From Longimicrobiaceae bacterium (GTDB lineage Bacteria; Gemmatimonadota; Gemmatimonadetes; Longimicrobiales; Longimicrobiaceae), in the NCBI GenBank assembly GCA_036375715.1, contig DASVBS010000005.1:1-64000 (forward strand): a stretch of DNA of 64,000 bases, read 5' to 3'. A program made the translations under genes and the position numbers. The notes under the pieces are model-generated. The model did not search any database, was not told the origin of the DNA, and worked only from the letters and a program-made list of their open reading frames with translations. Of the stretch, positions 13,158 to 50,975 are shown piece by piece (positions within the stretch are counted from its first letter, which is position 1; every line of letters begins with the position of its first letter).

Positions 13158-15143
13158 TTGTCAGTTTCCAACTCGGTTCCGTCGACGATCGCCGAGCGGC
13201 TAAGTCGCCGTCAGGTCCTCACCGTCTTCAGCGGGCTGCTGCTCGCGATGTTGCTGGCGGCGCTCGACTCCACCATCGTGGCGACGGCGCTGCCCACCGT
13301 CGTCGGGGAGCTGGGTGGGCTGAGCCGGTTGGCGTGGGTGGTCACCGCCTACCTGCTGGCGCAGACGGTGGTCACCCCGCTGTACGGCAAGCTCGGCGAT
13401 CTCTACGGTCGGAAGATCGTCCTGCAGACCGCCATCGTGCTCTTCCTCGTCGGCTCGGCCCTGTGCGGGATGAGCCAGACGATGATGCAGCTCATCCTCT
13501 TCCGGGCCATCCAGGGGCTCGGCGGCGGCGGGTTGATGGTGACCGCACAGGCGGTCGTCGGGGACATCGTCTCCCCGCGCGAGCGCGGCCGCTACCAGGG
13601 GATCTTCGGCGCGGTCTTCGGCGTCTCCAGCGTGGCCGGGCCACTCCTGGGCGGCTATTTCACCACCCACCTTTCCTGGCGCTGGATCTTCTACATCAAC
13701 CTTCCGCTGGGGCTGATCGCGCTGGGCGTGATTGCCTTGACGCTGCCGCGCCGGCCCGAGCGGGTGAGACGTTCGGTCGATTACGTCGGGGCGACACTGC
13801 TCGCGGTGGCGCTCAGCGCGATCGTGGTCTTCACCGACCTCGGCGGAGTTCACTATCCCTGGGGATCGCCGCAGATGCTGGGGCTGGCGGCGATCGCCGT
13901 GGCCACGCTGGCAGGCTTCGTCTGGGCCGAAACGCGCGCCGAGGAGCCTGTCCTCCCGCTGCGGCTCTTCGCCAACCCTACCTTCTCGCTGACCGTGGCG
14001 GTGGGGCTGGTGGTCGGCATCGCCATGTTCGGCTCGGTGACCTATCTGCCCCTCTTCCTGCAGGTGGTGAACGGCGCCAGCCCGACCGGTTCGGGGCTCC
14101 AGATGGTGCCGATGATGGGCGGCATGCTGTTCACCTCGATCATCTCCGGGCAGCTCATCAGCCGCTGGGGGCGTTATCGCATCTTCCCCATCGTCGGCAC
14201 GGCGGTGATGGCCCTCGGCCTCTACCTCCTCTCGCGCATGGACGCCGAGACCTCTGTGGCACGGGCCTCCTTCGACATGATGGTGCTGGGGCTCGGTCTG
14301 GGGATGGTGATGCAGGTGCTGGTGATCGCCGTCCAGAACTCGGTGGCCTACGAGGACCTCGGCGTCGCCACCTCGGGGGCGACCCTCTTCCGCCTCATCG
14401 GAGGTTCGCTGGGCACCGCCATCTTCGGGGCCATCTTCGCCGCCAGGCTCGCTCGGAATCTGGCGCAGATGCTTCCGCCAGGCACGCCGAGTCGCTTCGG
14501 CGGCGGAGCCGGCGCCGGGATCAGCCCGCAGATGCTGGCCGACCTCGACCCCGCGACCCGGGGAATCTACATCGAGGCCTTCACCCTGTCGTTGCGCACC
14601 GTCTTCCTCGCCGCGATGGGGATCGCCCTGGTGGGCTTCCTGCTGACCTGGTTCGTCCCCGAGCGGCCGCTGCGCGAGAGCATCGCCGCCGTCGCCGGCG
14701 ACGTGGGGAAGGAAGCGGAAGAGCTCTTCCCCATGCCCTCGGACATACCGTCCGTGCGCCGTATCGAGCGGGCGCTCTCCCTCCTTGCCACGCGGGACAT
14801 CAAGCGGGAGTACATCCGCAAGGTGGTCGAGCGCGCCGGGGTTGACGTGAGCCCGTACGCCGCCTGGCTACTGGTCCGCTTCGACCAGCACCCCGACCGA
14901 AGCCTCTCCTGGATCGCCCGGCACTACGGCGCCGACCCCAGCCGAACCGCCGAAGCCGAGCGCGAGCTCCGCAGCCGCGGCCTGCTCACCGACGAGGCCG
15001 GCGAGCGCGTCCTCACACCGGTCGGCCGCCAGCTCCTCGAATCCCTCAACGCCGCCCGCCGCGAGCGCATCCGCGAAGTCCTCGCCGAGTGGGCGCCCGC
15101 CGAGCGGGAAGAACTGGTCGCTAGGCTGGCAGGCGAGTTCTAG
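13158..15143 (+). CDS. DHA2-type MFS exporter (EmrB/QacA-like) with C-terminal winged-helix domain
   Basis: 661 residues. No ATG lies before the first membrane helix, so TTG 13158 is used. Residues ~20-515 form a 14-helix drug/H+ antiporter: motif D1 region [17 protein letters not shown], motif [12 protein letters not shown], motif [15 protein letters not shown]. Usual length is ~500. After the last helix ([15 protein letters not shown]) comes a soluble domain of ~130 residues with a MarR-like wHTH pattern ([18 protein letters not shown], then [29 protein letters not shown]). The tail may sense the cargo or bind DNA; this is inference. Its end abuts a repeat element. Confidence 0.88.
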
Positions 15144-25007: not shown

Positions 25008-25744
25008 TTGGTCTCCCGGGCGGTCTCGTCGAGCGGTGCTTCCCGCTGACTGCGCAGGAACTCGATCAGGCCGCGACCCGCTCCGAGGATATGGGAGCTG
25101 AGCAGGGAGATGGCATGCTGCTGCTCGCCTTCGCGCACCGCGCTGAGGATCGCCCGGTGCTCCCGGTTCGCGCGGGTCTCTCCGTGGGTCAGCTTGAGCT
25201 GCATGCGCTGATAGCGGTCGCTGTGGTTGTGCAGCTGCTGCACGATGTTGATCGCGAGCGGGTGCCGTTCCGGGAGATACAGGGTGGAATGGAAGAGCCA
25301 GTTGAGTGTCCCCCACGCACGGACATCCCCCTTCTCGAGCGCCTCCTCGTAGTCGTCCAGCACTGCCTCGGCGCGGTCCAGCACCTCGCGGGTGAGATGT
25401 GGAAAGGCGCGGCGCAGCAGGTCCGCCTCGATCAGCGCGCGCAGCTCGAACACCTCCCGGATCTCGTCCAGCGACAGGGTGGAGACGATCGCCCCCACGT
25501 GCGGGCTGAAGCTGACCAGCCCCTCCGCCTCGAGCTGACGCAGCGCTTCGCGGACGGGGATTCGGCTGACGCCCAGCTCCGCGGCGATGGCGTCCTGTCG
25601 CAGCGGCGTCCCTTCAGGGTAATCGCCGTGCAGGATCCGATCGCGAATCGCCTCGAGCACCAGCATCGCGACGGTCTTGCGCGGCACACCCCCGCGCGCG
25701 GGAGAAGCTCGCGACGAGCGCGACGACGTCTGTCTGGGGGCCAT
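25004..25744 (-). CDS. GntR/FadR-type regulator of the hydroxyproline operon
   Basis: 246 residues from ATG 25744 (MAPRQTSS). N-terminal GntR winged helix: IRDRILHGDYPEGTPLRQDAI (read in part), ELGVSRIPVREALRQLEAEGLV. C-terminal FCD effector domain with helices RALIEADLLRRAFPHLT and EHRAILSAVREGEQQHAISLL. Its TGA overlaps the epimerase ATG, so it is the first gene of the catabolic operon and probably represses it until a hydroxyproline-derived ligand binds. Divergent from susC; palindromes in the shared gap are candidate sites. Confidence 0.9.
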   Translation of the reverse strand: MAPRQTSSRSSRASPARGGVPRKTVAMLVLEAIRDRILHGDYPEGTPLRQDAIAAELGVSRIPVREALRQLEAEGLVSFSPHVGAIVSTLSLDEIREVFELRALIEADLLRRAFPHLTREVLDRAEAVLDDYEEALEKGDVRAWGTLNWLFHSTLYLPERHPLAINIVQQLHNHSDRYQRMQLKLTHGETRANREHRAILSAVREGEQQHAISLLSSHILGAGRGLIEFLRSQREAPLDETARETK

Positions 25745-26117
25745 ACCCTTGGAGGGGCGAGAGGAGAGCGGTCGACACGGACCGCTCCAACATGCGGCCG
25801 CGGGCCCGAGCGCGCAACCACTACCCAGGGCGGTATTTAGCCCCACCCGCCCCGCTTCTCCCGAACCCGCAGCTCCACCATTCCGTGAAGGATATTATAT
25901 CCGATCTGTGCCAATGAAAAGAGGATCGTACGGGCAGGAGTACGGCATTTCGCGCCCACAACTCTCTTGCGCCATCAGCAGATTGGATAAAATATACTTG
26001 CCATGCGCATCCCTCCCGGCCGGGAGGATCGTCCGCTCGCCCCCGCTCGGGAGGGCTCGCGCCCGTCCCGGCCGCACTCCGCGGCCGCTCTCCACCACCC
26101 ACAGGAGGCCTCTTGCC
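25745..26117. promoter_or_regulatory. Divergent control region between gntR and susC
   Basis: 373 bp without a gene, with an unusually AT-rich stretch. The perfect palindrome GGATAT-T-ATATCC lies at 25890-25902 and reads TATAAT on the minus strand, so it may overlap the gntR -10 box. A related GGATAAAATATAC lies at 25985-25997, near a TATACT on the plus strand (25993-25998), about 120 bp before susC. Both could bind the FCD-type GntR protein, giving joint control of import and catabolism. A good AGGAGG at 26104-26109 precedes ATG 26118. Confidence 0.5.
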
Positions 26118-29072
26118 ATGAGATGGTCCGCGCTCCTCCTGGCCCTGTCGCTCGTCCTCGCCTCCGGGGCGTCGGCGCAGACGCAGGGCCGCATCACCGG
26201 GCTCGTCACCTCGCTGAGCGGGGAGCCCCTCGCCGGCGCCGCCGTCAGCGTGGTGGGCACCACGCTGGGCGCCCTCTCCGGCCCCGACGGTCGCTATACG
26301 ATCGAGGAGGTGCCGGGAGGCTCGCATACCCTCCGTGCCAGCCTGCTCGGCTACGCCGAGGCAACCGTCGAGGTCACGCTCGCTGCCGGGCAGACCGCGA
26401 CCGCCGACCTGCGGCTCGAACCGTCGGCCGTGCAGCTGGAGGGGATCGTCGCGGTCGGCTACGGCACGCAGCGTCGCGAGGAGGTCACTGGCGCGGTCGC
26501 CAGCGTCTCGGAGGACGAATTCGTCCAGACCCCGGCGCGAGACGCCGCGTCCCTGGTCGCCGGCAAGATCGCCGGCCTCGCCGTCTCCACCCCCAGCGGC
26601 GATCCCCGCGCGGGTACCCGCATCAGCCTGCGTGGCGCCACCACCATCAACGGCCCGCGCGAGCCCCTGGTCCTGGTCGACGGGGTCCCCGGCACGCTGG
26701 AGACGGTCGCGCCGGCGGACATCGAGAGCATCAGCGTGCTCAAGGACGGGTCCGCGGCCGCGGTCTACGGCTCACGCGCCTCGAACGGCGTGATCCTCAT
26801 CACCACCAAGAAGTTCCGAGGCGGCGCCCCGACCATCCACTACGATACCTACGCCAGCTACTCGACCCTCTACCGAACTCCCGACTTCCTCGACGCCGAC
26901 GACTACCGACGCCTCATCGAAGAGGGCTACGCCTTCGAAGACCTGGGATACGAGACGGACTGGCAGGACGAGGTGCTGCGCAACCCCATCAGCCAGAACC
27001 ACAGCCTCACCCTCTCCGGCGGAGCCTCGAACACCAGCTACACGGCGTCCTTCAACTATGAAGACGCGGAGGGGATCTTCCTGCGCTCGGACAACCGCGA
27101 GATGACCGGCCGCATCAACGTCAACCACTCGATGTGGGATGGCCGTCTTACCGCGGATCTCAACCTGGTAGGCCGCAACCAGGACTACTTCGACGGCCCG
27201 GACTTCAACTACATCTGGCGGCAGGCGCTGATCCGGAATCCTACCGACCGCATCCGCGACGACGACGGCAACTGGCAGGAGCGGGGCACCTACTTCTATA
27301 CCAATCCGCTTGGCCTCCTCCACGAGGAGAATGGTGGCTTCGAGTCACGTATCGTTCGGCTCCACGGTACCGTCACCCTGCAGCCGATCGAGCCGCTCCG
27401 CCTCTCCCTGCTCGTCGGCACCGAGCGGGGAAACTCGATCTGGGGAACGGCCACCACCTTCCGGCACGTCAACACCACCCAGTCGGGCCTGAACGGGACT
27501 GCCGCTCGCCGCACGGACGCCAACCGCGACCGCATCCTCGAGTTCACCGGCACCTTCGAGCGTGCTTTCGGCTCGCACGACATCACCCTGCTGGGAGGTT
27601 ACAGCTACCAGGACTTCCTGGAGGAAGGGTTCGACGTCAGCACCTACGGCTTCCCCACCGACCAGTTCGGTTACGACCAGCTCGGCGCCGGCGACGCCCT
27701 CAACACCGGCAACGCCGACATGGGAAGCTACAAGCAGGGGAACAAGATCATCGGCTTCTTCAGCCGCCTGAACTACGACTGGGACGACCGCTTCCTGTTG
27801 ATGGGATCGGTCCGGTACGAGGGGAATTCGCGCTTCGGCGCGGATCACAAGTGGGGGTTGTTCCCCGCGATCTCGGCCGGATGGCGGCTCAGCCAGGAGA
27901 CGTTCCTCCAGAGCGCGACCTTCATCGACGACCTGAAGCTACGCGCCGGCTTCGGGGTGACCGGCATCGCCCCCAACGGCAACTACCTGTCACTCACCAG
28001 CTACGACTACGGCCCTCGCTTCCTCTACAACGGTGAGTGGGTGCAGGGACTCTCCCCCGCTCGCAATCCCAACCCGGACCTGCGTTGGGAACGAAAGGAG
28101 GAGGTGAATGTCGGCCTGGACTTCGCCCTGTTCGACTATCGCCTGAACGGCTCAGTCGACGTGTACCGCCGGGACACCAAGGGGATGTTGTACAACTACT
28201 CCGTCCCCGTGCCTCCGAACCTGTACGGCTCCATCCTCGCCAACGTCGGCCACATGCGGAACCAGGGGTTGGAGGCGCAGGTCGGCTTCGACGTCTTCCG
28301 CGGCAATCGCTTCAGCTGGACCGCCACCGCGAACTACTCGACCAACTCGAACCGCCTCGTCAGCCTCTCCAACGATGTCTATCAACCCGACAGCGACTAC
28401 TTCTACGCGGGGCACACGGGTGAGCCCATCCAGCTCCCCACCCACCGCATCGACGTTGGCGGTCCCATCGGCAACTTCTACGGCTTCGAGTCGGTGGACA
28501 TCGACGAGAACGGCGAGTGGATCGTGCTCAGCGCCGAGGGCGATCGCATCTCGATCCGCGACGTCACCGAGGGCGATCGGCGCGTGATCGGCAACGGCGT
28601 CCCGAAGCACTACCTCTCGCTCAACAACACCGCCCGCTTCGGGAACTTCGACCTCAACGTGAACATGCGTGGGGCTTTCGGCTTTCAGATCCTGAACTTC
28701 CAGGAGATGTACTACTCGAACCCCACCATCCTGCAGTACAACATGCTCGAATCGGCCTTCGAGCCGGTCTACGGCAAGCGCTTGCTCGACTACGACCTCG
28801 CCTACGTCAGCTACTACATCGAGGACGGGGATTACTGGAAGCTCGACAATGTGACCCTGGGCTACACCCTCGGTGACGGCCTGCTGGGTCGGCTGTCGGG
28901 GGTGCTCTCCAACGCGCGGATCTACGTGGCCGGGAGTAACCTGCTGACCATCACCGGCTACAAGGGGCTCGACCCGGAGGTCGACACCACCGGCCTCGCT
29001 CCCGGTATCGATCACCGCGACAAGTATCCGACCACGCGCACCTTCACCGCGGGCATGAGCCTGACGTTCTGA
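26118..29072 (+). CDS. SusC/RagA-family TonB-linked outer membrane transporter
   Basis: 984 residues with signal peptide (ALLLALSLVLASGASA, cut before QTQG). Order: carboxypeptidase-D-regulatory-like domain ~22-105 (GRITGLVTSLSGEPLAGAAV), then the SusC linker VQLEGIVAVGYGTQRREEVTGA, plug domain ~125-235 with LVDGVPGTLETVAPADIESI and AVYGSRASNGVILITTK, then the 22-strand barrel ending in FTAGMSLTF. Transports oligomers with its SusD partner, 14 bp downstream. Many such pairs take glycans, but some take peptides; divergence from a hydroxyproline operon with two peptidases makes peptide substrates likely (inference). Confidence 0.95.
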   Translation: MRWSALLLALSLVLASGASAQTQGRITGLVTSLSGEPLAGAAVSVVGTTLGALSGPDGRYTIEEVPGGSHTLRASLLGYAEATVEVTLAAGQTATADLRLEPSAVQLEGIVAVGYGTQRREEVTGAVASVSEDEFVQTPARDAASLVAGKIAGLAVSTPSGDPRAGTRISLRGATTINGPREPLVLVDGVPGTLETVAPADIESISVLKDGSAAAVYGSRASNGVILITTKKFRGGAPTIHYDTYASYSTLYRTPDFLDADDYRRLIEEGYAFEDLGYETDWQDEVLRNPISQNHSLTLSGGASNTSYTASFNYEDAEGIFLRSDNREMTGRINVNHSMWDGRLTADLNLVGRNQDYFDGPDFNYIWRQALIRNPTDRIRDDDGNWQERGTYFYTNPLGLLHEENGGFESRIVRLHGTVTLQPIEPLRLSLLVGTERGNSIWGTATTFRHVNTTQSGLNGTAARRTDANRDRILEFTGTFERAFGSHDITLLGGYSYQDFLEEGFDVSTYGFPTDQFGYDQLGAGDALNTGNADMGSYKQGNKIIGFFSRLNYDWDDRFLLMGSVRYEGNSRFGADHKWGLFPAISAGWRLSQETFLQSATFIDDLKLRAGFGVTGIAPNGNYLSLTSYDYGPRFLYNGEWVQGLSPARNPNPDLRWERKEEVNVGLDFALFDYRLNGSVDVYRRDTKGMLYNYSVPVPPNLYGSILANVGHMRNQGLEAQVGFDVFRGNRFSWTATANYSTNSNRLVSLSNDVYQPDSDYFYAGHTGEPIQLPTHRIDVGGPIGNFYGFESVDIDENGEWIVLSAEGDRISIRDVTEGDRRVIGNGVPKHYLSLNNTARFGNFDLNVNMRGAFGFQILNFQEMYYSNPTILQYNMLESAFEPVYGKRLLDYDLAYVSYYIEDGDYWKLDNVTLGYTLGDGLLGRLSGVLSNARIYVAGSNLLTITGYKGLDPEVDTTGLAPGIDHRDKYPTTRTFTAGMSLTF

Positions 29073-29086
29073 AAGGATAGGCTGCG

Positions 29087-30697
29087 ATGAGACGCATCAA
29101 CGGTAGGGGCCTCCCGGCACTCCTCGCGGTGGGGCTCGCCCTGAACGCCGCCGCCTGCACCGACCTCACCGAGGTCCCTTACACGGAGATCACCGAGGCG
29201 AACTTCAATCCCACCGCCAGCGACCTGGCGGCGCTGATGGCGCCCGCCTACACGCCGCTGCGCGACATCTGGATGGGGTGGTACGGAAACCTCGACTTCC
29301 AGGAGGAGACCGCCGACGCCTTCCTCACCCCGGTGCGGCCGAACGGCTGGTACGACGGCGGCACCTACATACGCCTGCACGAGCACCGCTGGGACGCGGG
29401 ACAGGGGCAGCCGGACGCCCTCTGGAACCGTTCCTTCAGCGGGATCAACTCAGCCAACCGGGTCATCCACCAGCTCGAATCGGGCATCGTCCCGGTGGAG
29501 GAGGAGGCGAAGGCGGCGATCGTCGCCGAGCTACGGGCGCTGCGGGCGTACTATTACTACCTGCTGCTCGACGCCTTCGGGAACGTGCCCGTGGTGATCG
29601 ACTTCACCCAGGCCGAACCACCCGAGCAGTCCAGTCGGGATGAGGTCTACCAGTTCGTGGTGAGCGAGCTGACCAGCACCATTCCCGAGCTCTCCGAGGA
29701 GACCGGCACGGCGATGTACGGCCGGATGAACCGGTGGGCAGCCATCGGGATCCTCGCCCGCGTCCACCTGAACGCCGAGGTGTACGTCGGCACCCCCGAG
29801 TACGACGAAGTGATCGCCCTCACCCAACAGATCATCGATTCGGGGGAATTCGCCCTGGAGGCGAACTACAGCGACGCCTTCGCGCGGGAGAATCACACCT
29901 CACAGGAACTGATCTGGGCGGTCCCCTACGACGCCATCAACGCCCCCGGGAGCAGCTTCCATATGAAGACGCTCAAGCCGGAGCTGCGCTTCGTTTTCGA
30001 CATGCAGGCGCAGCCGTGGGGCGGCAGTGCCTCCAATCCGCAGTTCATCGACACCTATGACGAGGACGATACTCGCCTGGAGGACACCTGGCTGATGGGT
30101 CCTCAGTTCGACGACGAGGGGCGGGGGTACGACTTCGTCAAGCACGTCCCGTCGATTACCGACACCGAGTTCCATCACGGCTACCCGGTCAAGAAGTACG
30201 AGATCTACCCGGGGATGACCGGTAGCTCGGACGTCGATTACCCGATCCTGCGCTACGCCGAAGTGCTGATGATGCAGGCCGAGGCGCGTCTGCGAACGGG
30301 GAATGCGGACGATGCCGCGGAGCTGGTGACGCAGGTCCGGGAGCGCGCCTTCGCCGAGACCGACCCCGCGAAAGCGAGGGTGACCGGCGCGCAGCTGATG
30401 GAGGGAAGCTCTTACAACTACGGCTGGTACGACGTGGACGGAGTCGTGAAGACCGGGCCCGGGGGCACGCCCGTGACCGGCGGCGGCGATGACGTTCAGT
30501 ACGGCCGCTTCCTCGATGAGCTGGGCTGGGAGTTCGCCGCCGAGGGCCACCGGCGCCAGCATCTGATCCGCTTCGGCGTCTTCACCAAGAAGACCTGGTT
30601 CAACCACCGCCCCAACGGCGACCACCGCACCCTCTTCGCCATCCCCCTGAGCGCGATGGAGACCAACGCGAAGCTGGAGCAGAATCCCGGCTACTAG
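29087..30697 (+). CDS. SusD/RagB-family substrate-binding lipoprotein
   Basis: 536 residues. Lipoprotein signal MRRINGRGLPALLAVGLALN ending in AAAC. SusD features: LWNRSFSGINSANRVI, ELRALRAYYYYLLLDAFGNVPVV (read in part), then TPR-like helices (YPILRYAEVLMMQAEARLR) and the C-terminal ELGWEFAAEGHRRQHLIRFG motif, ending NPGY. It caps the SusC barrel and captures the substrate. AAAGGATAGG lies upstream of ATG 29087. A heptamer repeat element follows directly. Confidence 0.95.
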   Translation: MRRINGRGLPALLAVGLALNAAACTDLTEVPYTEITEANFNPTASDLAALMAPAYTPLRDIWMGWYGNLDFQEETADAFLTPVRPNGWYDGGTYIRLHEHRWDAGQGQPDALWNRSFSGINSANRVIHQLESGIVPVEEEAKAAIVAELRALRAYYYYLLLDAFGNVPVVIDFTQAEPPEQSSRDEVYQFVVSELTSTIPELSEETGTAMYGRMNRWAAIGILARVHLNAEVYVGTPEYDEVIALTQQIIDSGEFALEANYSDAFARENHTSQELIWAVPYDAINAPGSSFHMKTLKPELRFVFDMQAQPWGGSASNPQFIDTYDEDDTRLEDTWLMGPQFDDEGRGYDFVKHVPSITDTEFHHGYPVKKYEIYPGMTGSSDVDYPILRYAEVLMMQAEARLRTGNADDAAELVTQVRERAFAETDPAKARVTGAQLMEGSSYNYGWYDVDGVVKTGPGGTPVTGGGDDVQYGRFLDELGWEFAAEGHRRQHLIRFGVFTKKTWFNHRPNGDHRTLFAIPLSAMETNAKLEQNPGY

Positions 30698-30700
30698 CAG

Positions 30701-30875
30701 GAATTACGAGTTACGAATTACGAATTTTAAGGCCAACACAGAGGCTTCAGGGATCAAAGGAAAGGGCACGGAGATACTGGCGCCGAGCTTCTCTGCGCCC
30801 TCCATCGCCTCTGGGCTAGAATGCCGTAGTTCGTAATTCGTAATTCGTAATTCGTAACTCGTAATTCGTAATTCT
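30701..30875. repeat. Heptamer (ATTACGA) inverted repeat element, copy 2
   Basis: Left arm at 30701-30727 (GAATTACGAGTTACG...), right arm GTAATTC units at 30828-30875, core with ACACAGAGG and TCTCTGCGCCCTCC. It fills the gap between convergent susD (stop 30697) and the DACNV gene (stop 30876). Confidence 0.9.
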
Positions 30876-32039
30876 TCAAAGCAGCAGCGCCTCTATCCTG
30901 TGCGCATTCACTCGCTCGTCCTTCGGGTTCCAGGCGAAGACCGTGAAGCGGCCGTCCTGGGAGGCGACGAGGGCCCGGGCGTCGTGCTGGTCGTGGGCGA
31001 ACTGGGCGGCGGACAGATGGCGGGTGCCGCCCATCGCCGAGGGGTGGAGCAGCCGGCGCGGGCGGTGCAGCACCGGCTCGCTCACCAGCACCTCCTCGAC
31101 CGGCCCGCACCCTTCTCGCCGACCGATCTTCACCCCGAAAGCGAGCACGTCAAAGCGCTCGTTGATCACAGTGGCCCCGTCCACGGCGGTGAGCCCGGCG
31201 ACGGCGGCCACCGCCCGCTGGAAGTCGGCCATCCAGCGCGGGTCGGAGCGTCTCTCGGGATCCACCCGCATCAGCTCGGCGAGCTCCGCCAGTGGCGGCG
31301 CGACTGAGTAACGGATCGGCTTCACGATCGACTCCTGCCAGGTCGTGCTCTCTGTGGGCACGACCAGGAGCGATCCGCCGCGGCCATGGGCCCGCATCGA
31401 TACCGCCAGCTCCACCAAGGCATTGGTCGGCTCGTTCCAGAGCGCGTCCGGATCGAGCCCGAGCAGGGCGTTCATCGTGGGCGTGTACTCGTTCCGACCC
31501 AGCCCCTCATGGTCGAGGATGCGGACCTCATCCCCCTCCAGCACCGCGACGTTGCCGAATTTCCCCGGTCCGCGCCCGCGGCGGTACTTGATGACCAGCA
31601 AACCCGGCTGCACCACCTCCAGCACGAAGCAGTAGCAGGGCACCGTTCGGGTGGTGCCCCATATCCGCAGGTCGCCGTCGAAGCGCCAAACGCCCAGGTG
31701 GATTCCCGGGCGTTCGACCGCCGGCGCGAGGTGCGTCAGCGAGCCGGCGCTAAAAGAGAGCTTCCGTTCGAAGAGCAGCGGCGCCGAGGCCAGGTTGGGC
31801 GGCAGGTAGGCGAGGGAGATCCGGGGTGAGCGGCCCTCCTCCCGGCGCAGGCTTGCCCAGAAGGCGGTGTCCACGATCGCCTCGATGTCGCCCCGGCCGG
31901 GAACCGGGGGAAGCTCGCGCACGTTTTCAACTCCGGCGCGGGCGGCGATTAAATGCGACTCCACCGCCCCGGCCACCGCGTGCGCGGCGGGATATCCGGG
32001 ATTCCGTCTTTCCGGCGGGGTGGGTCGTTCGTCGCTCAT
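30876..32039 (-). CDS. DACNV sensor domain protein with diadenylate cyclase-like C-terminus
   Basis: 387 residues, soluble. The C-terminal part (~205-372) has the two signature motifs of DisA_N/DAC domains: AVDGATVI (DGA at 287-289) and MGGTRHLSAAQF (GTRH at 338-341), followed by ARALVASQDGRFTVF. In DisA and CdaA these bind ATP and make c-di-AMP. The N-terminal ~200 residues match what I recall as the probable sensor domain DACNV (for example FALARGW-free core RKLSFSAGSLTHLAPAVERP). Start ATG overlaps the upstream MFS stop as ATGA, so the two are coupled. Either an active c-di-AMP synthase or a degenerate sensor; both key motifs look intact. Confidence 0.7.
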   Translation of the reverse strand: MSDERPTPPERRNPGYPAAHAVAGAVESHLIAARAGVENVRELPPVPGRGDIEAIVDTAFWASLRREEGRSPRISLAYLPPNLASAPLLFERKLSFSAGSLTHLAPAVERPGIHLGVWRFDGDLRIWGTTRTVPCYCFVLEVVQPGLLVIKYRRGRGPGKFGNVAVLEGDEVRILDHEGLGRNEYTPTMNALLGLDPDALWNEPTNALVELAVSMRAHGRGGSLLVVPTESTTWQESIVKPIRYSVAPPLAELAELMRVDPERRSDPRWMADFQRAVAAVAGLTAVDGATVINERFDVLAFGVKIGRREGCGPVEEVLVSEPVLHRPRRLLHPSAMGGTRHLSAAQFAHDQHDARALVASQDGRFTVFAWNPKDERVNAHRIEALLL

Positions 32040-33565
32040 GGGCCTGCGCGTGCGTCTTCGTTCATCTGGTCGGGACTCAGGTCGGGCACCCGGGCGCTGA
32101 TCAACAGAATCGCGATCGCGAACGCCGCGACGATCCAGAAGACCAGGACCAGGCTGTCCGACAGTCCGCCCCGCAGCACCGTCAGGGCCTGCTCGCTCAC
32201 CCCTGAAAGCGCGGTCCCCTCACCGTGCTGGATCAGGTCGCGAACGCTATCGAGCGAGATCGTCGAAGCCAGGCCCCGCGCCTCGATGTAGCTAGCGAGG
32301 CGAACGTTCAGCACCCCTCCCAGCATCGCGGCCCCGATCGCGTTGCCGAGGTTGCGCATCAGCATGTTCGTGGCCGTCGCCACTCCGCGCTGTGCCCAGG
32401 GCACGCTGGTCTGGATCGCCACGATGTATGTGGTGTTCAGCAGGCCAAAGCCCATCCCCATGAGGAAGGCGCCGAGACCCGCCTCCAGCGGGCCGCGCGT
32501 GGCGAAGATCGCCACGATCGCCGCGCCCACCGTCACGAAGACGCCACCGGCCCGCGCCAGGGTGCGCACGCCAAGCCGCACGAAGGTCCGGCCCGCGACC
32601 ACCGAGGCGATCGGCCAACCGATCGACATCCCCGACAGCGTGAAGCCCGCCACCAATGCGCTCCTGCCGAGCACCCCCTGTACGAACGTCGGAAGGAAGG
32701 TGATGAGGCCGATCATCGCGATGCCCGCGCATAGGATGGCCAGATTGCCCCGCCGGATGATCTCGTTCGCCCAGAGCTCGAGGTGCATCATCGGGTCCGG
32801 AGCGGCGCGCTGCTGACGGTAGAATAGGCCCAGCAGCACCAATCCACCCGCGCCGAGCAGCAGGGCCCACGACACGCCCCACGATTCAGCCTGGGTGAGC
32901 GCCAGCATCATCGCGGAGAGGCCGGCCAGCAGGAGCGCCGCGCCTACGTAGTCCACGCTGCGCTCCCGGTGCTCGACCTTCTCGTGCAGGAAGAGGCCGA
33001 TCAACGCCAGTGAGGCGATTCCGAAGGGGAGGTTCAGCCAGAAGATCCAGTGCCAGTGCAGGTGCTGCACGATGATCCCGCCCGCGAGCGGCCCCAGGAT
33101 CGAGGAGATCCCCCATACGCTCGCCAAATAGCCCTGGATGCGCCCCCGCTCGCGGAGCGAGTAGAGGTCGCCGGCAAGGGTCGCGCTCATCGGCAGCACG
33201 GCCCCCGCTCCGATCCCCTGAACGAAGCGGAAGGCAACCAGCATCCCCATAGAGGCGGCGAAGCCGCACAGGGTGGCTCCCAGGAGGAAGATGCTGACGC
33301 CGGCAACGAAGACCGGCTTGCGGCCGTACAGGTCCGCCAGCTTCCCGAAGATCGGAGTGGTGACGGCCTGCATCAGCAGGTAAGACGAGAAGACCCAGCT
33401 ATAGAGGGAGAAGCCGCCCAGCCGCGATGCGATGCTGGGCATGGCTGTGGCCACGATGGTCCCCTCGATGGCCGCCAGGAACATCGCCACCACCAGGGCG
33501 GTGAGAACCAGCGATCGACGGGTCTGGCGGGGCGGTGTCTCTACGGTCTCGACAATGGTGGCCAC
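32036..33565 (-). CDS. DHA2-type MFS drug exporter (EmrB/QacA-like)
   Basis: 509 residues with 14 predicted helices. IEGTIVATAMPSIASRLGG is the D1 motif, GKLADLYGRKPV motif A, and GISSILGPLAGGII motif C. A proton-driven exporter of toxic compounds. Its stop overlaps the start of the DACNV gene, an uncommon pairing that suggests the exporter and a c-di-AMP-type signal are linked. Separate subfamily from the longer MFS protein at 13158. Confidence 0.92.
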   Translation of the reverse strand: MATIVETVETPPRQTRRSLVLTALVVAMFLAAIEGTIVATAMPSIASRLGGFSLYSWVFSSYLLMQAVTTPIFGKLADLYGRKPVFVAGVSIFLLGATLCGFAASMGMLVAFRFVQGIGAGAVLPMSATLAGDLYSLRERGRIQGYLASVWGISSILGPLAGGIIVQHLHWHWIFWLNLPFGIASLALIGLFLHEKVEHRERSVDYVGAALLLAGLSAMMLALTQAESWGVSWALLLGAGGLVLLGLFYRQQRAAPDPMMHLELWANEIIRRGNLAILCAGIAMIGLITFLPTFVQGVLGRSALVAGFTLSGMSIGWPIASVVAGRTFVRLGVRTLARAGGVFVTVGAAIVAIFATRGPLEAGLGAFLMGMGFGLLNTTYIVAIQTSVPWAQRGVATATNMLMRNLGNAIGAAMLGGVLNVRLASYIEARGLASTISLDSVRDLIQHGEGTALSGVSEQALTVLRGGLSDSLVLVFWIVAAFAIAILLISARVPDLSPDQMNEDARAGP

Positions 33566-33703: not shown

Positions 33704-35329
33704 TCACCCCGTGCGCAGATTCACCGTCCTTTCAACCCGCACTGCCGCCAGAAAATCGGCGTCGTGGCTCGCTACCAGAAGCGCCCCGTCGTAGTCGCGC
33801 AGCGCGCTCTCCAGCGCCTCGATCGCCTCCAGGTCCAGATGGTTCGTGGGCTCGTCGAGCACGAGGAAGGAAGGCGGACGACTCCCGGCGAGCACGCAGG
33901 CCAGCGATGCGCGCAAGCGTTGACCTCCGCTCAGCGTGCCCACCAGCTGGAGCGCCGCTTCGTCGGAGAAGAGGAAACGGGCCAGTGCATACCGCGCGGA
34001 CGTTGGCTCGAGGTCGGGATGGTAGGCGCGGAAATTCTCGAGCACCGAACGCTCGGGATCGAGATTCAACCCGTGCTGATCGAGCACCGCGATCTCCTCA
34101 TCGGGGAGGCGGCGCACGCTTCCCGCCTGAGGCGTGAGCTGACCAGTGGCCACCCGCAGCAGGGTCGACTTCCCACTGCCGTTCGGACCCACCAGGGCTA
34201 CCCGCTCGGGGCCTACCATGCGGAGCGAAACTCGGTCCAGCACTGCGCGTGGCGCACTGGGGAAGCGCACCATGACCTCGTTCAGCTCCAGCACCACCCG
34301 TCCCGCGGGGAGCCCGGTCGACGGCAGGTCGAAGCGGGGCCGCTCCCGCGCCTCGACCCGCTCCCGCGCCTCGCGGGCGCGCTTCCGCCGCTCCTCCACC
34401 TCGCGGGTGATGATGCGACCCACCCGCGCGGCCGTTGCCTGCGCCTGCGCCTTGCGACCGTTCAGTAGGATCCGCGGCAGGTTGGCCGTCGCCCGGGCGC
34501 GACGCCCCTGCGCCCCGCGCCTGGCCTGACGCTCTCGCAGCTCCACGGCCCTGCGCTCCGCTCGACGCAGGTCGGCGCGGGCACTCTCCACCTCCTGCGC
34601 CGCCGCCTGTCGCTCGATCTCGCGCAGTTCGACGTACTGGTCCCAATTCCCTCCGTATAGGCGCACGCCCAGCGTGGACAGCTCGACGATCCGGTCCATT
34701 CGTCGGAGCAGCTCGCGGTCGTGGCTGACGCAGAGGAGTCCGCCGGTCCACTCCTCCACGAAGCCGTAGAGGGTACGGCGGTGGTCCGCGTCCAGATGGT
34801 TGGTGGGCTCGTCGAGCAGGAGGAAGTCCGGACGCCCGAGCGCCAGACCGGCGAGCGCGACGCGGGTCGCTTCTCCATCGCTCACCGCGCCGACCGGCCG
34901 ATCGAGCGCGAAGTAGTCCAGACCGAACCGCGCCAGGACGGCCTCGATGCGCTCCGGCAGGTCCCAGTTCTCGCCGATGATCTCGAAATCCTCCAGCGAA
35001 GCCTTCCCCGCCTCGGCGCGCCGCAAAGCGGCCAGGCGCTCGTCGACCCGCAGGATGGTGGCGAGCGGCGCCTCCGGCGGCGGACGGAAGTCCTGCGGCA
35101 GCACGGCGACCATCGCCGCGCGGTGGATGTGACCGGACGCGGGAACGAGCTCGCCCGCCAGCAGACGAACGAGCGTGGTCTTACCCGAGCCGTTCGCGCC
35201 GACCAGCCCGGTCCGTTCTCGGCCGAATGAGAGAGTGAGGTCCTGGAAGAGCGGGCGCCCCTCAGCGGGCGCGTAGGAAATCCGCTCTGCGACGATGCGC
35301 GCGTCGCTCGCGTGGGCTGTCGATGACAT
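33704..35329 (-). CDS. ABC-F family ATPase
   Basis: 541 residues from ATG 35329 (MSSTAHASDAR). Two ABC domains without membrane helices: domain 1 with GANGSGKTT and LLLDEPTNHLD but an altered signature (AVSDGEATR), domain 2 with GPNGSGKST, LSGGQRLRASLA and FLVLDEPTNHLD. Between them a long Arg-rich helical linker (~230-320) as expected for the P-site tRNA-interaction motif. ABC-F proteins act on the ribosome, as translation factors or in antibiotic protection. The 302-bp region upstream holds no recognised gene; a leader peptide was not found. Confidence 0.92.
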   Translation of the reverse strand: MSSTAHASDARIVAERISYAPAEGRPLFQDLTLSFGRERTGLVGANGSGKTTLVRLLAGELVPASGHIHRAAMVAVLPQDFRPPPEAPLATILRVDERLAALRRAEAGKASLEDFEIIGENWDLPERIEAVLARFGLDYFALDRPVGAVSDGEATRVALAGLALGRPDFLLLDEPTNHLDADHRRTLYGFVEEWTGGLLCVSHDRELLRRMDRIVELSTLGVRLYGGNWDQYVELREIERQAAAQEVESARADLRRAERRAVELRERQARRGAQGRRARATANLPRILLNGRKAQAQATAARVGRIITREVEERRKRAREARERVEARERPRFDLPSTGLPAGRVVLELNEVMVRFPSAPRAVLDRVSLRMVGPERVALVGPNGSGKSTLLRVATGQLTPQAGSVRRLPDEEIAVLDQHGLNLDPERSVLENFRAYHPDLEPTSARYALARFLFSDEAALQLVGTLSGGQRLRASLACVLAGSRPPSFLVLDEPTNHLDLEAIEALESALRDYDGALLVASHDADFLAAVRVERTVNLRTG

Positions 35330-35631
35330 GCGGATACACTCCGATCCTATCGGTTCCTGTGAGGTGAACGCCGATGAGGATCTTCCGCATGCCAACCTTG
35401 TTCGTCGGGTGGGTGCCTCCCGGACCGGTCCGGCCTTTGGAGGCCGCCGGCGGGTGCTCAACGATCACCAGGAAGGCGTCTTCTGTCAACCGGGGATAGG
35501 GCTGGCGCCAGTCCGCGGCAGGCTCGATTGCCGGTCTGGATTTGCGTCGGCGGCGGCCTCACACCGGTGCCGCACAGCAGCGTGGACGAGTCAGGAGCCG
35601 CCGTATATCTTGCGACCGTTCAGGCGAGTCA
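35330..35631. other. Gap without a recognised gene
   Basis: 302 bp between the ABC-F start and the small plus-strand gene. It must hold divergent promoters. GGACCGGTCC near 35418-35427 is a perfect palindrome; no other structure is evident. Confidence 0.4.
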
Positions 35632-49028: not shown

Positions 49029-50975
49029 ATGGATGCTGACGAAGGCTCTCTAGATGGCTTAGCCCCGCAGAGTGCTGCGCCCGCCGCGGCCGCGGCCGCG
49101 CAGAGCGGCCAGGCGCACGGGGACCTCCTCCCTCTCGGCCTCGCCGCACTCGGGATCGTCTTCGGCGATATCGGGACCAGTCCCCTCTACGCCTTTCGCG
49201 AAAGCTTCCACGAATCGCACGGCATCCCCTTCACCGATGCCAACATCCTGGGCGTCCTCTCGCTGATCTTCTGGGCGCTGACGATCGTCATCTGCATCAA
49301 GTACCTGATCTTCATCCTGAGGGCCGACAATCAGGGCGAGGGCGGGATTCTCGCCCTCACCGCACTGGTGACGCCGCGGAGGACCGGGCGGCGCCCGCGC
49401 GGTAGGGTGCTGATACTGATGGGGCTGTTCGGGACCGCGCTCCTCTACGGCGACGGGGTGATCACGCCCGCGATCTCAGTGCTCTCGGCGGTTGAAGGGC
49501 TGGCCATCGTCACCCCGGTCTTTCGTCCATACGTGGTGCCGGTGACCATCGTGATCCTGCTCGTGCTCTTCGCTCTGCAGCGGAGGGGCACCGAGAGGAT
49601 CGCGAAGCTCTTCGGACCCGTAACGTTACTCTGGTTCACCACCATGGGAGCGCTGGGGGCAGCCCAGGTCGTGCGAGTGCCGCGTGTGCTTACCGCGATC
49701 AACCCGCTATACGGGGCCGATTTCTTTCTGCGTAATGGCTGGCACGGCTTGCTGGTGCTCGGCTCGGTCTTCCTGGTGGTCACCGGAGGCGAAGCCCTAT
49801 ATGCCGACCTGGGGCACTTCGGCATCCGACCGATCCGGTTCGCCTGGTTCACCGTGGTTTTCCCCGCGCTCCTGCTCAACTACTTCGGGCAGGGGGCCCT
49901 CCTCCTGCAGCGGCCGCAGGCGATCCAGAATCCCTTCTTCCGACTCGCTCCGCCCTGGGCGCTGATGCCTCTGGTAGTGCTCGCCACCGTCGCCACGGTG
50001 ATCGCGTCGCAGGCGGTCATTTCCGGCGCCTTCTCGCTCACCCGACAGGCGGTTCAGCTCGGTTACCTGCCGAGGATGGAGATCGAGCACACCTCGCCCA
50101 CGACCATCGGCCAGATCTACATCGCCGGTGTGAACTGGGCCCTCATGATCGGGTGCATCTCGCTCGTCCTGGGCTTTGGCTCGTCCAGCGCGCTCGCCGG
50201 GGCGTACGGGGTGGCGGTCACCACCGACATGGTCTTCGCCACCCTGCTCTTCACCGCCGTGGCGCTCATTCGTTGGAGGTGGGGATGGCCGCGGGCGCTG
50301 GCCCTGGCGGCGATCCTGCTGGCGGTGGATCTCTCCTTCTGGAGCGCGAACATCATCAAGGTGCCCGATGGAGGCTGGTTTCCCCTCGTGGTGGGAGCCG
50401 TCGTCTTCACCATGATGACGACCTGGAAGAAGGGACGAACGGTGCTGGCGGAGAGGCTCCGCAAAGGCTCCGTCAGCTTCGATGCCTTCGCCGAGCAGCT
50501 GGAGAGGGAAAAGTTCCTGCGGGTGCCGGGCACCGCGGTGTTCATGTACAGCGACCCCGCGGCAACACCTCCCGCCCTCCTGCATAACCTGAAGCACAAC
50601 AAGGTCCTGCACGAGCGGGTGCTGCTGCTCTCCGTCGAGTCGCTGGATACGCCGCACGTTCCCGAGAGCGAGCGCATCGACGTGCAGGCGCTCGGCCACG
50701 GGCTGTATCGCATTGTCCTGCGTTACGGCTTCATGGAGGATCCCGATGTTCCGCGTGACCTGACACTCACGGCGAAGTTCGGGCTGGAGGTGAACCCGAG
50801 ACAGGTGAGCTATTTCCTCGGGCGCGAGCGGGTGATCGCCTCCAAGCGGCCGGGCATGGCGATCTGGAGGGAGAAACTTTTCGGGGTGATGAACCGCAAC
50901 GCCCGCAACGCCACCGACTTCTTCCGGCTGCCGCCGAACCAGGTGGTCGAGGTGGGAGCGCAGGTCGAGATGTAA
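49029..50975 (+). CDS. kup: Kup-type potassium uptake transporter
   Basis: 648 residues. 12 predicted helices with the family motif GIVFGDIGTSPLYAFRESF, LRADNQGEGGILAL, GDGVITPAISVLSAVEGL, EALYADLGHFG, and a C-terminal soluble domain of ~190 residues. Imports K+ with H+. A ~25-residue Ala-rich N-terminal extension precedes the conserved part. Convergent with the BNR_4 gene 25 bp away. Confidence 0.96.
   Translation: MDADEGSLDGLAPQSAAPAAAAAAQSGQAHGDLLPLGLAALGIVFGDIGTSPLYAFRESFHESHGIPFTDANILGVLSLIFWALTIVICIKYLIFILRADNQGEGGILALTALVTPRRTGRRPRGRVLILMGLFGTALLYGDGVITPAISVLSAVEGLAIVTPVFRPYVVPVTIVILLVLFALQRRGTERIAKLFGPVTLLWFTTMGALGAAQVVRVPRVLTAINPLYGADFFLRNGWHGLLVLGSVFLVVTGGEALYADLGHFGIRPIRFAWFTVVFPALLLNYFGQGALLLQRPQAIQNPFFRLAPPWALMPLVVLATVATVIASQAVISGAFSLTRQAVQLGYLPRMEIEHTSPTTIGQIYIAGVNWALMIGCISLVLGFGSSSALAGAYGVAVTTDMVFATLLFTAVALIRWRWGWPRALALAAILLAVDLSFWSANIIKVPDGGWFPLVVGAVVFTMMTTWKKGRTVLAERLRKGSVSFDAFAEQLEREKFLRVPGTAVFMYSDPAATPPALLHNLKHNKVLHERVLLLSVESLDTPHVPESERIDVQALGHGLYRIVLRYGFMEDPDVPRDLTLTAKFGLEVNPRQVSYFLGRERVIASKRPGMAIWREKLFGVMNRNARNATDFFRLPPNQVVEVGAQVEM

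Follow-up and report, generated by a model that had tools for sequence, protein, structure and literature searches.

Does a gene that begins inside the stop codon of an exporter gene encode a diadenylate cyclase (DAC), and are the two genes partners? This question is raised by positions 30876-33565 of a contig of a Longimicrobiaceae bacterium (Gemmatimonadota; DASVBS010000005.1, assembly GCA_036375715.1), whose first 64,000 nucleotides were analyzed here and are called the window. A preliminary description, made from the sequence, regarded this region as a DACNV-diadenylate-cyclase-like protein coupled to a drug exporter. The region consists of two genes, both on the minus strand, with the following features.

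30876..32039, minus strand: DACNV-DAC-like gene of 387 aa (open frame, Pfam DACNV match, homologues)
31650..31916, minus strand: DACNV predicted sensor domain, residues 42-130 (PF21751, 101.1 bits)
30879..31433, minus strand: DAC-fold half, residues 203-387 (AlphaFold2 model, PDB fold matches, profile tests)
31173..31181, minus strand: DGA motif, D287-G288-A289, preceded by V286 (conserved in homologues)
31014..31028, minus strand: GTRHL motif, residues 338-342, with RHL where the canonical motif is RHR
30954..30962, minus strand: SQD motif (S360-Q361-D362), placed at the SEE motif by alignment to canonical DACs
32036..33565, minus strand: MFS exporter gene of 509 aa, DHA2/EmrB-like (PF07690), upstream of the DACNV gene with a 4 bp overlap

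The exporter gene and other neighbors

The ATG of the DACNV gene sits inside the MFS stop codon (ATGA), as had been described, and this overlap suggests that the two genes are translationally coupled. The product of the upstream gene matches PF07690 with 179.9 bits against a cut-off of 33.4, and is nearest to DHA2/EmrB-type models, the EmrB model TIGR00711 giving 195.8 bits where its cut-off is 230.2. In contrast to this MFS protein, the 387-aa protein is soluble by hydropathy, with a single marginal hydrophobic window. The proposed coupling to a drug exporter holds for the gene order of this genome but not beyond it: an MFS relative was found near the DACNV gene at 0/62 other loci, counted in the fetched flanks, some of which were ended by contig ends. 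The neighbors of DACNV genes vary widely and are not conserved, and several of them are signaling proteins (AAA-GGDEF, CheB/CheR-PAS-kinase and receiver-kinase). Exporter partnership as a general feature of the family was therefore rejected. In this lineage the MFS gene is probably just co-transcribed or translationally coupled with the DACNV gene, and the adjacency of the drug pump looks like a local coincidence instead of a conserved partnership.

Other genes of the window were also noted. An ABC-F-like double ATPase gene (33704-35461, minus strand) immediately precedes the MFS gene and has the same orientation. On the other side, a SusC/SusD-like outer membrane pair, recognized from translations (25677-30697, plus strand), is convergent with the DACNV gene, and 7-bp tandem repeats (GAATTAC / CGTAATT) occupy 30701-30726 and 30825-30874 between the SusD-like and DACNV genes. 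A second MFS exporter at 13158-15143 (plus strand) is related to the first (phmmer, 261 bits). The window also contains a gene for Kup, to which the preliminary description had drawn attention as a common c-di-AMP target; the gene is clearly there (49029-50975, PF02705, 635.7 bits), but 17 kb away from the DACNV gene and on the opposite strand.

The N-terminal DACNV domain

Residues 42-130 of the 387-aa protein score well over the curated cut-off of PF21751 (101.1 vs 27 bits), which places the protein in the DACNV family. The same match was recovered again from the DNA at 31650..31916, and the profile is matched by all 32 of the 32 clade members. Homologues of about 47-59% identity over nearly the full length are found in Gemmatimonadota and Bacteroidota. 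In Pfam, PF21751 is described as a 'probable sensor domain', and it is from this description that DACNV is predicted to sense a ligand or state. A literature search under the name DACNV found no papers. Because a full-length AlphaFold model built from three sequences was poor (pLDDT 42) and unusable, no structural reading is given for the DACNV half.

A DAC-type fold in the C-terminal half

The Pfam profile of DAC (PF02457) reaches 11.7 bits on the 387-aa protein against a cut-off of 27, and this match is limited to the GTRH...SQD stretch. Weak matches to the same profile (E<=1) recur in 30/32 members of the clade of the window protein (clade A; best E 0.0009) and in 6/7 members of a second clade (clade B; best E 2.3e-6). 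With the single protein, nothing relevant was found by phmmer in the PDB and no match by an NCBIfam search; PADLOC gave no match for the DACNV gene. A full-length profile of clade A alone found no DAC in the PDB either, and by hhalign this clade alone was aligned to four CdaAs with a probability of only 9.5%. The DAC signal emerged when the C-terminal halves of clades A and B were merged into one profile. Against an alignment of canonical DACs, hhalign then gave a probability of 92.7% for both clades together, and 95.8% for the RHR clade. When 6,488 ORFs were ranked by the merged C-terminal profile, the best 20 outside the family were canonical DACs in 20/20 cases; reciprocally, DACNV proteins made up 15 of the best 20 outside canonical DACs in the ranking by a canonical DAC profile. 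Hypergeometric p-values of these rankings are overstated, since DACs are related to one another. Among all PDB chains, a profile of this kind had four matches with E<=10, all of them DACs or the related protein 2fb5, with weak E-values (0.25-1) and a ranking that is not weak.

Residues 203-387 were modeled by AlphaFold2 without templates from three homologues, none of which is a canonical DAC. The model has moderate confidence (mean pLDDT 71.8, pTM 0.70). In a Foldseek search of the PDB, its best 50 matches were all CdaA, DisA, DacA or CdaM, with E from 1.2e-4 to 1.5e-3 and TM-scores of 0.38-0.48 by query length. At such moderate TM-scores, the model of the C-terminal half shows a DAC fold and not its fine geometry. 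Of the DACNV-diadenylate-cyclase-like identity given in the preliminary description, the DACNV domain and the DAC fold are supported by Pfam, profiles and model; the Pfam match is above the cut-off for DACNV and below it for DAC.

Active-site motifs and the third residue of RHR

Both the DGA and GTRH motifs had been called intact. They are present and strongly conserved: the D and G of DGA, R340 and H341 of GTRH, and the S and D of SQD are each invariant in 71/71 distinct homologues. The RHR signature, however, reads R340-H341-L342 in the 387-aa protein, so that the third Arg is missing. Among the 71 distinct homologues, this third residue is L in 57, R in 9, F in 3 and M in 2. The 62 proteins with a non-Arg residue (L/M/F) share a tightly conserved surrounding, GGTRH[L/M/F][S/A]AAQF and SQDG, and the nine Arg-bearing proteins are more divergent. 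DGA is preceded by V or I (V286 here), where CdaA has His.

In Gemmatimonadota, RHR is carried by almost all canonical CdaAs, in a count of which a few rows are chance matches in extended frames. The exceptions are of the CdaA-YbbR type, one reading RHA in the genome studied here and one reading RHT in a different genome. The former (L003, G000:C65:182649-182999, minus strand) is a CdaA_N-DAC-YbbR fusion, to which the latter (L155) is related; in these fusions the same third residue changed independently in an otherwise strong DAC match.

In CdaA of Leptospira, D172A or R203A abolishes activity, and S222A reduces it, about half being kept (PMC12974146). D172 and R203 correspond to the Asp and first Arg retained in the 387-aa protein. 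The His before DGA was linked to metal preference in the same paper (PMC12974146). Replacement of RHR by AAA abolishes c-di-AMP synthesis by DacA of M. tuberculosis, CdaS of B. thuringiensis and CdaM of M. bovis, and ATP binding is also lost in one of these three mutants (PMC3328451, PMC4568413, PMC13022847). A literature search found no single-residue test of the third RHR position.

Phylogeny, distribution and the c-di-AMP pathway

The 62 proteins without the third Arg group together, with an SH-aLRT of 95 on their branch, in a maximum-likelihood tree that came from a quick search, was rooted at its midpoint and has some long branches. This group consists of Gemmatimonadota plus Cytophagales; the 19 Gemmatimonadota sequences stand together (99) beside Bacteroidota. 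The preliminary description held that few c-di-AMP enzymes with this N-terminal domain are known, which at the sequence level does not fit the distribution of PF21751: it was matched in 21/395 Gemmatimonadota genomes and in 68/291 genomes of the order holding Pontibacter. One distant match is on a Hymenobacter plasmid, and no homologues were found in viral contigs or phages. A match from Gemmatales (L008, 38% over about 50 residues) was unconfirmed by PF21751 and was set aside.

Two Bacteroidota genomes have both types, an RHR-type protein plus an RHF- or RHL-type one (L161 and L170 in G764; L162 and L169 in G938). Two clade B genes, L120 (5673-7256) and L121 (7771-9354), are located after a gene for a response-regulator-PglZ protein, a neighbor identified by Pfam matches for L120 and by the same sequence cluster for L121.

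A canonical DAC is also present in 36/37 tested genomes with a DACNV gene. The genome studied here has two canonical DACs, one CdaA and one CdaA-YbbR fusion, together with a 7TM-HD (PgpH-type) match. Therefore, a c-di-AMP pathway is present independently of the DACNV gene.

Possible functions of the 387-aa protein

We assign the 387-aa protein to the DACNV family and regard its fold as of the DAC type. Since its RHR motif is incomplete and its Pfam DAC score is below the cut-off, we do not class it as a diadenylate cyclase, although it may still work like one. Read from its sequence, synthesis of c-di-AMP by this protein is plausible, and is placed no higher because the third RHR residue is not Arg. 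Our preferred reading, to which we give about an even chance, is an accessory, sensor-gated and likely catalytic DAC-fold protein on top of the housekeeping CdaA. It would be a soluble, two-part signaling protein, in which DACNV gates the C-terminal domain. The DAC-fold domain would bind ATP through GTRH, DGA and SQD, and two such domains facing each other would most likely still condense two ATP into c-di-AMP. The protein would then provide a conditional supply of c-di-AMP beside that from CdaA.

The absence of the third Arg across a whole clade, with only hydrophobic residues in its place, could also mean that catalysis has been given up. The protein would then be a receptor for ATP, c-di-AMP or another nucleotide, whose binding it would report to partners, DACNV being its output or a second sensor, and the canonical CdaA found nearly always elsewhere in the genome would supply the c-di-AMP. 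A pure receptor could dispense with the catalytic Asp of DGA, but this Asp is invariant throughout the homologues, and we consider a non-catalytic role rather unlikely. Alternatively, the RHL site may belong to an altered enzyme, whose product is another cyclic dinucleotide or a linear one, or whose substrate is a different nucleotide. Tight conservation around the changed motif, the separation of this clade from the RHR-bearing DACNV clade and the coexistence of RHL/RHF and RHR types in some genomes agree with this idea, which we hold to be improbable. Taken as a statement on the RHL-type clade that exists beside ordinary CdaA in Gemmatimonadota and Cytophagales, its members being either nucleotide receptors or synthases of a product other than c-di-AMP is a tentative possibility, somewhat short of an even chance. 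Least probable is a drug-response module, in which exporter and DAC-like protein act as a unit and ligand sensing or c-di-AMP is linked to efflux. The ATGA overlap on a common strand, the ABC-F-like gene upstream in the same orientation and a FUSC-type transporter that adjoins one Pontibacter homologue would suit such a module, but the other loci, with their widely varying neighbors and no MFS relative, speak against it.

Annotation by the sensor domain alone means that a second, possibly regulated DAC-like system is easily missed in two Gram-negative phyla. As a motif held to be essential has changed throughout a clade, the role of the third RHR Arg can also be tested directly, with cyclase, receptor and other product as the outcomes to be told apart.

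Comparison with known systems

Compared with CdaA/DacA, the 387-aa protein shares the DAC fold, DGA, the first Arg and the His of RHR, and the Ser of SEE. It differs from them in lacking the CdaA_N transmembrane domain and the His before DGA (V286, so there is no HDGA), and in having RHL for RHR; with no match to CdaA_N, it falls outside the CdaA class. With DisA it shares the DAC fold, as seen in fold matches to M. tuberculosis DisA, and a non-His residue before DGA. In the DisA class, however, an N-terminal DAC is followed by a linker and HhH, whereas the DAC half of the 387-aa protein is C-terminal, has no Pfam match to the other DisA domains and carries RHL. The PF21751 family itself, named 'putative sensor domain DACNV-containing protein' in PGAP, agrees with the 387-aa protein in a full domain match and in overall architecture and length range. 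Databases name these proteins by the N-terminal domain only, and the DAC half of the window clade is under the Pfam cut-off. Clade B, which includes the Hymenobacter monticola plasmid protein, L120-L125, L161 and L162, shares DACNV, the DAC-fold half, DGA, GTRH and SQDG with the window clade, and the two are aligned by hhalign with a probability of 99.9% over 309 columns. Clade B, on long branches, keeps the third Arg (GTRHR) where the window clade has L/M/F. The RHR and RHL clades, having the same architecture, provide matched proteins for testing the third Arg.
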